Below the pieces are notes generated by a model, which was given only the letters and a program-made list of their open reading frames with translations, ran no database searches and was not told where the DNA came from. A program made the translations under genes and the position numbers. Positions 22,731 through 31,378 of a stretch of 64,000 nt of DNA are shown one piece after another. Position 1 is the first letter of the stretch; each line of letters begins with the position of its first letter. The stretch covers positions 62,001 through 126,000 of the forward strand of contig CANLND010000010.1 of assembly GCA_947492585.1 (NCBI GenBank), in the 5' to 3' direction. Origin of the DNA: an uncultured Paracoccaceae bacterium (GTDB taxonomy: Bacteria; Pseudomonadota; Alphaproteobacteria; Rhodobacterales; Rhodobacteraceae).

Positions 22731-22932
22731 AGGCAACTCCGACAGGGAGGTTGGGTTTTGCTGCGCAGCAGAGATCGCTTTGTATTGCACAATTTTTCAG
22801 CACATATAGAAAGGTGCCACAGGCCCAACAGGTACAGTTTTCCGTCTGACATAAGTCTTTCATTTCCAGAAAAGCTTGCCTAGGCTCATCTTAGAACTTT
22901 GGTTCCAGTAAATAAATTTTTGGGAGACGATC

Positions 22933-28707: not shown

Positions 28708-30249
28708 TCAGCGTCCCTTGAAGAAACTGCCCAAGATCCCGCGAACGATGCGACGACCTGTGGTGCCTTTTAGCTCTTTGATCACGGCGTCCGACATGGC
28801 GGAGGCAAAACTGTCGCGCGGCCGGCGTGTGCTGCGCGCAGAGGATCGGGTCACGCGGCTGCCGGAATAGCGGCGGGCGGCATTGAATTCGCGGGCCATC
28901 GGTGCGGACTCGGCCTCCTCCTCGGCGGTTTCCGCCGCCTGCGCCGCTACGGCTGAGCGCTCTAGCAGAATTTCATAGGCCGACCGGCGATCAAGCGGCG
29001 TGTCGTATTTCCCGGACAACTCGGAGCCGCGCATGATGTCTACGCGTTCTTTTGGCGCCAGCGGCCCGAGCTGTGAACTGGGGGGGCGGATTAGGGTGCG
29101 TTCGACGACCCCGGGAATGCCCTTCTTTTGGAGCGTCGAGGTCAGTGCCTCGCCCACGCCCACCTGTTGAATGGCGTCTTCGGTGTCAAAGGCTGGGTTC
29201 TCGCGATAGGTCTCAGCTGCCAGCCGCAGGGCCTTGCGATCGCGGGCGGTGAAGGCGCGCAACGCGTGCTGCACCCGGTTGCCCAGCTGGCCCAGAACGT
29301 CTTCGGGCACATCGGCGGGGTTCTGGGTAATGAAATACACGCCGACCCCTTTTGAACGGATCAGCCGGGCCACCTGTTCAACCTTGTCGATCAACGCTTT
29401 TGGGGCGTCGTCAAACAGCAAATGGGCTTCATCAAAGAAAAACACCAGTCGCGGTTTTTCGGGGTCGCCGACCTCAGGCAATTCCTCAAAAAGTTCGCTC
29501 AATAGCCAAAGCAGAAAGGTTGAGTAAAGCCCTGGAGAGACCATCAGTTTGTCGGCGGCCAGTATGTTGACCTGGCCTTTTCCATCAGCGTCGACGCGCA
29601 TCAGATCGGACAGCTCCAGTGCGGGCTCACCAAAAAACGCTGCACCACCCTGATTTTCGAGCACCAGCAATCGTCGTTGAATGGCCCCGATCGACGCTGG
29701 CGACACATTTCCATATCGCAACGACAGCTTTGTGCGGTTTTCGCCAACCCACACCAAAAGGGCCTGGAGATCCTTCAGGTCGAGGAGCGGTAGGCCTTCC
29801 TCGTCCGACAGACGGAAGGCAATGTTCAAAACCCCCTCTTGCGCCTCGCTCAGCTCCAGCAGGCGCGACAATAGCAAAGGCCCCATTTCGGCCACCGTTG
29901 TGCGAATGGGATGTCCTTGTTTGCCAAATATATCCCAAAAGGTGACTGGGCAGGCGTGATAGCTGTAATCATCAAGGCCAATTTGCGTTGCCCGTGCGGT
30001 AAATGCCTCGTGCAGCTTGAAATCCGGCCGTCCTGCTTTGGCCATGCCGGACAAGTCTCCTTTAACATCAGCGAGAATCACCGGGACACCGGCATTCGAA
30101 AATCCTTCGGCCAAGATTTGTAATGTGACAGTTTTACCCGTGCCAGTTGCTCCTGCGATCAGACCATGACGGTTCGCATATTTAAGATTAAGCCATTGTG
30201 TTTGCGCGTAATTTTCGCCGCCACCGCCAAGAAAAATGCCGTTTTTCAT
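28708..30249 (-). CDS. HerA-like ATPase, DUF853/YjgR family
   Basis: A 513-residue P-loop ATPase of the HerA/FtsK group. Walker A is GATGTGKT near residue 36 and Walker B is [12 protein letters not shown] near 265; [30 protein letters not shown] carries the sensor and arginine-finger region. The C-terminal part is basic with [17 protein letters not shown] and may bind DNA. HerA proteins usually pair with the nuclease NurA, but no nuclease gene is adjacent, as is normal for the DUF853 branch, whose role is unknown. GGAG lies 7 bp before the ATG. Confidence 0.9.
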
Positions 30250-30317
30250 ATATTTTCTCCAATGTTTGTCGCGACTTCCCGGCGCGTAAACGCAAGATTA
30301 ACCTTTGAACACTACCG

Positions 30318-30408
30318 TAGAAGATGACCAGAGAAGCACATGCGGGTGCTCTTTCGGGTCATTTCCTCCCTGTCAGACTGGCCGTGCTTCGCGCACGGCC
30401 TTTTTTTT
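30318..30408 (+). ncRNA. small RNA, MmgR/suhB-motif (alpha-r8) like
   Basis: Two stem-loops with a pyrimidine-rich single-stranded link. The first runs from ATGACC at 30324 to GGGTCAT at 30362, with an inner stem pairing AGAG and AGCAC to GTGCTCTTT. Then comes TTCCTCCCTGTCAGAC, able to pair with ribosome binding sites. The last is a perfect terminator, GGCCGTGC/GCACGGCC at 30380-30400 followed by eight T's. No gene precedes this terminator on the plus strand. The layout and CCTCCCTGT link match the alphaproteobacterial suhB/MmgR family as I recall it. The 5' end is approximate. Confidence 0.75.
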
Positions 30409-30422
30409 AGCGAACAGGTCAG

Positions 30423-30527
30423 ATGGAACAAGTTTCGACCACCACGCTGCAAGAAAAATACGAAGCATGCCAGAAAAACGTCATTATAACGTCATTCTAT
30501 GTTGACCGAAGCCAAAGCCTTTCGTAA
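30423..30527 (+). CDS. possible 34-residue small ORF between the two small RNAs
   Basis: The frame begins MEQVSTTTLQEKY and ends DRSQSLS. AGG lies 5 bp before the ATG. It has no recognisable relatives and its end overlaps the promoter-like sequence of the next small RNA, so chance is a fair explanation. Confidence 0.15.
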   Translation: MEQVSTTTLQEKYEACQKNVIITSFYVDRSQSLS

Positions 30528-30530
30528 CTT
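30502..30530 (+). promoter_or_regulatory. sigma-70-like promoter of second small RNA
   Basis: TTGACC at 30502-30507 and TAACTT at 30525-30530 are separated by 17 bp, predicting a start near 30537. Confidence 0.55.
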
Positions 30531-30536
30531 ATTTTA

Positions 30537-30607
30537 CAGAAAAATAAGTCGGCCAGTCCGACAGGGAGCAAGATTAAAAAGGAAATCCGATAGGGTTTCC
30601 TTTTTTT
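30537..30607 (+). ncRNA. second small RNA candidate
   Basis: From the predicted start, about 70 nt follow: a hairpin GTCGG/CCGAC at 30548-30562, an A/G-rich link AGGGAGCAAGATTAAA, and a terminator in which AAGGAAA-CC pairs with GG-TTTCCTT, followed by seven T's ending at 30607. No protein gene ends upstream of this terminator. Its purine-rich link contrasts with the pyrimidine-rich link of the neighbouring small RNA. Confidence 0.55.
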
Positions 30608-30769
30608 ATGGCCCGTTGAACGGGATCTGCTGTCGCGGGCGGGCGCGCGTTAATTTGCCGGTTTTCTGACAGAGAACTTTCCCACTTGCACATCTGCTGA
30701 ATGCGCCTGACACTCTCGTTTTGTCGTGATACCCAATTCACGTAGACCTATAGAAAACAAGAGGCATTC

Positions 30770-31378
30770 ATGTTGAAGTCCCTTACACCGATGACTGTGG
30801 CGGCGCTGTTGACCTGTGCTGCGCCCGTGATCGCTCAGGACGCCGCAGCCCCCGTAGATAATACGGCGCCCGCAGCGCAGACCACCGAACAGGCCGCACC
30901 GGCTCCGGCGCAAGCCGACCCGCGCCAGGGTGGGCAATATATCAAAGAAAAGAACGGCGATTGGACGGTTGCCTGTGTAAAAGTTGAACAGGCCGAAGAT
31001 CATTGTTCCACCGGGCTGACGATTCTAGACCCGCAGTCAGTGCCAATCGCTGAGTTTTCGGTGTTTCGGATCGACCGCGATGACAACCCGGTTGTTGCGG
31101 GGGCCACGGCAGTTGTCCCTCTGGAAGTTGCGCTTCAGGGCGGATTTCAAGTCTCAATCGACGGGGCGCCCGCAAAGAGATACCAATATTCGTATTGTAA
31201 CAGCGTGGGCTGCATCGCTGAGTTTGGGCTTACCCAAGCCGACGTTGACGCATTGAAAAAAGGCAATGAAGCCACTTTGGTTGTGTTCCCTCTCGTCAAT
31301 CAAGGGAAACCGCTCCGCATTAACATGTCGCTGAGCGGCTTTACGGCGAGCTACAATACCCTTCGCGCCAGAGGCTAA
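30770..31378 (+). CDS. invasion-associated locus B (IalB) family protein
   Basis: A 202-residue exported protein. Residues 1 to about 22 are a signal peptide ending APVIAQDA; then an Ala/Pro/Gln-rich linker to about 55; then the IalB domain with GDWTVACVK, CSTGLTILD, VPLEVALQGGFQVSIDG and CNSVGCIAEFGLT, whose four cysteines may form disulfides. IalB-type proteins are periplasmic or outer-membrane associated; in free-living bacteria their role is unknown. AAGAGG lies 5 bp before the ATG. It is monocistronic, ended by the hairpin at 31385. Confidence 0.88.
   Translation: MLKSLTPMTVAALLTCAAPVIAQDAAAPVDNTAPAAQTTEQAAPAPAQADPRQGGQYIKEKNGDWTVACVKVEQAEDHCSTGLTILDPQSVPIAEFSVFRIDRDDNPVVAGATAVVPLEVALQGGFQVSIDGAPAKRYQYSYCNSVGCIAEFGLTQADVDALKKGNEATLVVFPLVNQGKPLRINMSLSGFTASYNTLRARG

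Follow-up and report, generated by a model that had tools for sequence, protein, structure and literature searches.

Does the small RNA (sRNA) gene at positions 30318-30408 of this stretch of DNA stand alone and, if not, what does it act with? The stretch, called the window here, is 64 kb of contig CANLND010000010.1 from an uncultured Paracoccaceae bacterium. The first-pass annotation had described the element as an orphan sRNA of the MmgR/suhB kind, with two hairpins and an anti-Shine-Dalgarno linker between them. The hairpins and the linker are present, but the sRNA is not an orphan. It forms the upstream half of a conserved locus with two sRNAs, and two further SorX-type matches above the cut-off are found in the same genome, at C9 and C6. 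The gene of the second, antisense RNA begins about 130 nucleotides (nt) downstream and lies outside the annotated coordinates. We consider it probable, from comparative sequence analysis, that the two genes form a module in which the second RNA serves as a family-wide sponge for the alpha-r8/SorX/SorY sRNAs and is encoded beside one of its targets. The parts of the two genes are as follows (MFE, minimum free energy).

30292-30317, plus strand: putative sRNA promoter region, with an ATACA-n-TTAACC element that is degenerate here as AAGATTAACC
30322-30408, plus strand: two-hairpin sRNA gene, with 5' stem, alpha-r8 10-mer and terminator
30322-30364, plus strand: sRNA 5' stem-loop (MFE fold; covariation in 18 species)
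30347-30406, plus strand: match to SorX RF02784 (49.8 bits, cut-off 46.6)
30362-30371, plus strand: alpha-r8 10-mer TTTCCTCCCT, the anti-Shine-Dalgarno seed (exact match to the 10-mer given in the available text of PMC12559287)
30363-30384, plus strand: sRNA side of the antisense pairing (22-nt inverted repeat I1; complementarity of 91% with 30550-30571)
30380-30408, plus strand: Rho-independent terminator of the sRNA, 8 bp and eight T (sequence, stem scan)
30502-30530, plus strand: second-RNA promoter TTGACC-N17-TAACTT (sequence, conserved layout)
about 30537-30607, plus strand: second small RNA, the proposed sponge (promoter-based estimate of the 5' end; fold; model R1)
30548-30568, plus strand: conserved core, hairpin GTCGG-CCAGT-CCGAC followed by AGGGAG (alignment A1)
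30550-30571, plus strand: sponge arm of the antisense pairing (complementarity to 30363-30384, duplex energy)
30576-30607, plus strand: second-RNA terminator, 13-nt arms, 92% complementary, then seven T (inverted repeat, fold)

The complementarity between the two RNAs is extensive. Bases 30550-30571 of the second RNA can pair with bases 30363-30384 of the sRNA at 20 of 22 positions. The predicted duplex has an energy of -57.1 kcal/mol, compared with a mean of -31.9 kcal/mol (standard deviation, 4.3) when the second RNA was shuffled and -32.8 kcal/mol (standard deviation, 4.2) when the sRNA was shuffled, and none of 1,000 shuffles of either kind reached it. With the internal structure of both RNAs counted, the net gain upon dimer formation is -18.2 kcal/mol, and again no shuffle was as good (0/200 and 0/300). 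We also searched 12 whole genomes for the perfect complement of the 18-nt core. With up to three mismatches allowed, 97 hits were obtained, 3 to 22 per genome, and the backward control gave 88. At one mismatch or fewer there were 21 hits against 0.08 expected by chance, although the genomes are related and the hits are not independent. Eight of these are the second RNA's own gene; the other 13, spread over 10 of the 12 genomes, are alpha-r8/SorX-type sRNAs as judged by eye from linker and terminator. Rhodobacter sphaeroides (G084) and genome G071 gave no sRNA hit at this threshold. That the complementarity arose by chance, or is an inverted repeat acting at the DNA level without RNA pairing, is very hard to reconcile with this restriction, at up to one mismatch, of the core's complement to its own gene and these sRNAs, with a duplex energy that no shuffle attains, and with a 7-nt seed match that persists complete in 73 of 77 pairs of neighbouring genes; we regard it as highly improbable, even though the weak covariation between the neighbours would fit it. 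Elsewhere in the window, positions 22732-22749 on the minus strand (CTCCCTGTCGGAGTTGCC) lie two mismatches away from a perfect target of the second RNA and end one base before a minus-strand ATG. Possibly, this is an mRNA target of the second RNA, or else a chance match.

The second RNA is well conserved. A DNA search with 30250-30640 matched 24 of 41 genomes and returned two separate conserved blocks between the HerA-like gene and ialB, the segment whose conservation had been put forward as a check of the annotation; the second block covers 30473-30606. The layout of the second gene is constant: TTGAC, 17 nt, a -10 hexamer, AAGTCGGCCAGTCCGAC[AG]GGGAG with few variations, often an A-rich stretch, and a terminator. 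Of 91 unique loci, 90 have a -10 pattern 15 to 18 nt beyond TTGAC, 86 of these with a spacer of 17. Because TTGAC was a criterion by which these loci were selected and the -10 pattern is a loose one, the constant 17-nt spacer is the informative part of this result. A generic sigma-70 promoter scan did not report the second-RNA promoter of the window. The segment 30536-30606 folds at a z score of -4.61, and the 5-bp hairpin is paired in 99.6% of alignment cells, with little variation in its letters. The same hairpin read in reverse accounts for an apparent minus-strand terminator at 30562-30548, which was therefore discarded. The second-RNA terminator itself (30576-30607) has A and T runs flanking both sides and could also stop transcription of the minus strand.

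Of 80 loci anchored on the HerA-like gene, 45 carry the core, written as TCCG[AG]C[AG]GGGA, upstream of that gene, and those with a genus or family given are nearly all Rhodobacterales; the match at L107, an unrelated GC-rich hairpin, was dropped by eye. A model of the second RNA, R1, was built from 50 sequences, including that of the window, which scores 62.8 bits as a training member; the training set consisted of family members and the E-values are rough. R1 was run on one genome from each of 248 genera of the family; 225 of these genomes matched at E<=0.001 and 207 at E<1e-10. Among 240 genomes of the class, which include at least three of the window's family, 84 matched at E<=0.001, and 81 of these belong to other families. 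The latter score at most 25.9 bits against 62.8 for the window, and we therefore treat them as background. Among the matches listed, the second RNA seems to be present as one strong copy per genome, and where it is absent from a draft or divergent genome, the stricter filters may have missed it. No Rfam family exceeded its cut-off in 20 second-RNA loci of other genera (3 kb each). A reading of the second RNA as a short leader that is translated, with AGGGAG as the ribosome-binding site of a small open reading frame, is very unlikely. GGGGAG does resemble a strong Rhodobacter ribosome-binding site AGGGGAGAAG in the text available of PMC8625941. However, ATG, GTG, or TTG occurs 3 to 13 nt after GGGAG in only 27 of 95 second-RNA loci (13 with ATG), a set in which not all loci are distinct and which was partly chosen by the presence of HerA, and the terminator comes at once. 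These start-codon counts do not support a coding reading.

Extended complementarity, specific within the genome, is also predicted with the seeds of sibling sRNAs, and it is weaker for the C6 sibling and for the neighbour sRNA of R. sphaeroides. The siblings in the window's genome were cut 35 nt before the linker, as with 50 nt part of the pairing shifted outside the likely transcript. The C9 sibling then gives a net gain of -16.0 with the second RNA, with no shuffle as good (0/300), and the C6 sibling one of -14.7, both through the linker. The C6 linker, CTCTCTGTTGGATTTGGTCGG, has C-to-T differences from the other siblings that retain the pairing with the second RNA as G-U. In R. sphaeroides 2.4.1, SorX and SorY were located within a few bases of the 5' ends given in the available text of PMC6238624. 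The R. sphaeroides second RNA shows in silico net gains of -15.7 with SorX, -15.5 with SorY, and -15.1 with the neighbour sRNA; with SorX and SorY the pairing is predicted to pass through CUCCCUGUUGGA and to involve the same core. As to genomic context, the C9 sibling (C9:39507-39596, plus strand; 57.7 bits) is of the SorY/SorX type and lies behind a LysR-type regulator gene, and the C6 sibling (C6:80878-80951, minus strand) lies behind an OmpR-type response regulator gene, like SorX in R. sphaeroides; both regulators were named by eye. A fourth SorX-like match in this genome, C2:62479 (25.7 bits), was dropped as a terminator lookalike because it lacks CCTCCC.

In the genomes sampled, the second RNA and the sRNAs tend to occur together. 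A SorX-like sRNA (E<=1e-5) was present in 20/20 genomes with the second RNA and in 9/20 without it (Fisher p = 1.5e-4), and one above the cut-off in 19/20 versus 1/20 (Fisher p = 6e-9), in tests uncorrected for kinship and for a difference in assembly quality. The genomes with the second RNA were chosen, are mostly complete, and include the window's genome and R. sphaeroides; those without it are 20 of the 23 that had remained unmatched. At the level of the locus, 27 of 32 second-RNA loci have a CCTCCCT motif in the 450 nt upstream. The pairing is symmetrical, and the five loci without such a neighbour could be taken to mean that the direction is reversed, with the second RNA regulating mRNA targets of its own and the upstream sRNA or its siblings sponging the second RNA. 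This we find quite unlikely: the 10-mer known to pair with mRNAs sits on the sRNA side, in Caulobacter the sponge is the purine-rich partner, and both genomes examined among the five that lack a neighbour carry SorX-like sRNAs elsewhere (four in G243 and three in G217, at E<=1e-5). In these two genomes some SorX-type sRNAs lie in pairs close together, L175/L173 (G243:C3) and L171/L176 (G217:C1), about 150 nt and 1.1 kb apart, which suggests tandem duplication.

Several results weigh against a family-wide sponge. For the C6 sibling, 16 of 300 shuffles paired as well as the real sequence, and in R. sphaeroides this was so for 1/200 shuffles with SorX, 3/200 with SorY, and 13/200 with the neighbour sRNA. 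Some neighbour pairs are poor (-26.6 at L064 and -25.0 at L071). Over the 77 neighbour pairs, cognate partners have a mean energy of -36.40 kcal/mol against -36.02 kcal/mol for non-cognate partners, which is better by 0.38 (permutation p = 0.005, not corrected for relatedness). The advantage is small because the second RNA hardly varies, and it is too weak to demonstrate co-evolution of the two RNAs. A sponge shared by a whole sRNA family would be expected to stay nearly invariant. Loci L025 and L048, which combine CAAAG with CTTGCC, looked like a case of compensatory change, but we do not claim them, because L125 has the same change in the sRNA with a normal sponge. Covariation within the hairpin of the second RNA is slight; one pair has changed on both sides, and 172 of 500 shuffles do as well. 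In the 20 loci of other genera, the neighbouring CCTCCCT elements score below the cut-offs of both SorX and suhB. Finally, ialB lies downstream of the second RNA in 94 of the 95 loci, which brings in the surroundings of the module.

28708-30249, minus strand: HerA-like ATPase gene, the divergent neighbour (PF05872, 745.9 bits)
30707-30735, plus strand: possible separate ialB promoter, CTGACA... (read from the sequence; related pattern in other loci)
30770-31378, plus strand: ialB, encoding an IalB family protein, the downstream neighbour (PF06776, 110.4 bits)

With ialB so constantly downstream, the second RNA may be asked to be a cis-acting leader, or attenuator, of that gene, in which GGGAG and the terminator control read-through, possibly with the upstream sRNA as ligand. 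The association also holds in the 29 distinct loci brought in by R1, where ialB follows in 28; the HerA-like gene precedes in 26 of these and in 90 of the 95. In R. sphaeroides, the place of the HerA gene is taken by genes for a catalase and an OxyR-like protein, identified by eye from the translations, and the two RNA elements are both retained. The catalase and OxyR genes are presumably RSP_2779 and RSP_2780. From the gene order and these numbers we infer that RSP_2778 is this locus's ialB gene, and therefore UdsE (formerly RSs2778), an sRNA of R. sphaeroides reported upstream of RSP_2778, is probably one of the two RNAs. In the available text of PMC8625941, UdsE is a 5' untranslated region (UTR)-derived sRNA with a 5' end made at a transcription start site (TSS), an sRNA-mRNA cotranscript, an unknown 3' end, and processing that involves RNase E and PNPase. 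A 5'UTR-derived RNA with a cotranscript fits an ialB leader. An alternative pairing of GGGA with the 3' arm of the terminator, proposed by RNAalifold, would fit it as well, but this may only reflect the C/U-rich terminator arms. R1 was built on the consensus with that pairing; we think that the pairing is an artefact, and the interpretation relied on the sequence core. The window's own ialB promoter element, too, bears only a loose likeness to the strict pattern, which it does not match. Across loci, however, a promoter-like pattern lies between the core and ialB in 57 of 91, against 0.1 expected, and matches to the core are also found in trans-encoded sRNAs at other sites of the genome. We therefore judge a leader function unlikely, and continue with the sponge.

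Its proposed target, the first RNA, looks like a real alpha-r8/SorX-type sRNA. The perfect 8-bp terminator with eight T reported in the first-pass annotation, GGCCGTGC-TTCGC-GCACGGCC at 30380-30400 followed by T at 30401-30408, turned out to be the only one on the plus strand of the window in a scan of both strands for perfect 8-bp stems with a loop of 3 to 7 followed by at least seven T; the minus strand has one. The long first hairpin was also recovered, at 30322-30364 in the MFE fold, and the CCTCCC described as single-stranded is mostly so, with part of the 10-mer weakly paired in that fold. The RNA of 30318-30408 folds at -37.6 kcal/mol (z = -3.92; 0/200 shuffles equal). In alignment A2, which holds one sequence from each of 18 species of the window's genus, the linker and terminator are nearly invariant. 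The letters of the 5' stem vary while pairing is kept, with changes on both sides in 10 of 13 pairs, and because of this we regard the first stem, whose conservation had been set as a test, as conserved. Both helices together are paired in 91.0% of cells against 82.1% in shuffles (0/500) and at most 45.1% in slid controls, a control that leans toward the proposed structure because the structure was written from the same sequences. In the wider family, the 48-nt segment before CCTCCC has a median z of -2.7 and lies below -1.5 in 60 of 78 loci.

Upstream of the sRNA we saw no plus-strand gene, in agreement with the annotation; the HerA-like gene there is on the minus strand. TTAAC is present in 63 of 78 regions upstream of sRNA loci and ATACA-N2-4-TTAA in 54 of 78. 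This conserved ATACA-TTAACC element, seen at 30292-30317 and in related loci, is unlike a sigma-70 promoter. Its TTAACC resembles what we take to be a CtrA half-site, and it is possible that the sRNA is under cell-cycle or stress control.

The anatomy of both genes, their conservation, and their complementarity can be seen directly in the genomes. For the function, we infer that both RNAs are transcribed in the window organism, that they pair in the cell in a manner dependent on Hfq, and that the sponge acts on the sRNA and not the reverse. The first RNA (30322-30408) would be a repressor of the alpha-r8/SorX type that exposes UUUCCUCCCU and pairs with mRNAs at their purine-rich ribosome-binding sites. 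Transcribed from a promoter of its own, the second RNA would act as a sponge for this RNA and for the siblings encoded at other sites. First contact would be between the exposed AGGGAG of the sponge and CUCCCU; the GUCGG/CCGAC hairpin would then open and the pairing extend across it, to about 22 bp at most. Such extended pairing would cover the seed and force apart the base of the terminator of the target, where Hfq usually binds. The target sRNAs would be either neutralised or broken down, and the mRNAs that they hold would be set free. On balance, we favour, with some reserve, the view that an apparently single-copy sponge without an Rfam family is found through most Rhodobacteraceae as a common off-switch of the SorX/SorY/alpha-r8 stress sRNAs, mostly kept as the tandem neighbour of a target, with repressor and antidote inherited together. 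If true, this would be an RNA analogue of a regulator-antiregulator pair.

How does the locus compare with known systems? With MmgR/suhB/alpha-r8 (RF00519), the window sRNA shares the exact 10-mer UUUCCUCCCU, placed between a structurally conserved 5' hairpin and a Rho-independent terminator. This part of the original assignment stands. Unlike those RNAs in most species, it does not adjoin an N-formylglutamate amidohydrolase gene, its neighbours being the HerA-like gene and ialB, and in a relaxed-threshold search it scored 39.8 bits, 1.2 bits below the cut-off of 41, so that we rejected an outright identification as MmgR/suhB. The covariance-model check thus gave a hit to another family than the one proposed. 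Among 20 family genomes, RF00519 matched two at E<=1e-5, one of them above the cut-off (G018), and there was no match in four other genomes of the genus. The G018 match, L167 (G018:C2:357377-357451), scores 60.4 bits, and the second-RNA match of that genome is at background level (E 4.5e-5). For SorY (RF02651), the relaxed-threshold search gave 28.8 bits against a cut-off of 111. Only two Rfam matches in the window exceed their cut-offs, a tRNA and SorX (RF02784) of R. sphaeroides, which has the CCUCCCUGU linker and the terminator in common with the window sRNA. Most of the 5' stem of the SorX model falls opposite gaps, and the score therefore comes mainly from the linker and terminator. In the available text of PMC6238624 and PMC8625941, SorX is cut from the 3' UTR of ompR-1, whereas the window sRNA follows no plus-strand gene. 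By synteny the C6 sibling, behind its OmpR-type gene, is closer to SorX than the window copy, and we rejected the latter as a SorX orthologue.

UdsE resembles one half of the module in being a small RNA upstream of the presumed ialB with a TSS-made 5' end, and differs from the proposed sponge in that the available text of PMC8625941 names neither a target nor sponging for it. No antagonist of SorX or SorY was seen in the accessible part of the literature on sponge RNAs in R. sphaeroides, no clear match in that on sRNAs of Ruegeria pomeroyi and Paracoccus, and no match in an exact-sequence search of the literature. The closest parallel is CrfA, which sponges the alpha-r8 sRNAs SisA-D in Caulobacter crescentus and, as far as the available text of PMC12559287 goes, is likewise a purine-rich RNA complementary to the alpha-r8 10-mer of several siblings, one antagonist against a family. 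The core in the window is built differently, judging from the description of CrfA: a 5-bp hairpin is followed by AGGGAG, the complementarity can reach about 22 nt, and the gene sits next to one of the targets. To our knowledge, sponging of alpha-r8 sRNAs has been reported only for CrfA in Caulobacter. In R. sphaeroides, SorX and SorY are well-established sRNAs of the photooxidative-stress response. A target of SorX is potA. For SorY, takP is a target (PMC6238624). A dedicated sponge, if real, would be the missing off-switch of the two sRNAs. It would also mean that alpha-r8 sponging is wider in the class than Caulobacter CrfA and has been reached by a differently built RNA.
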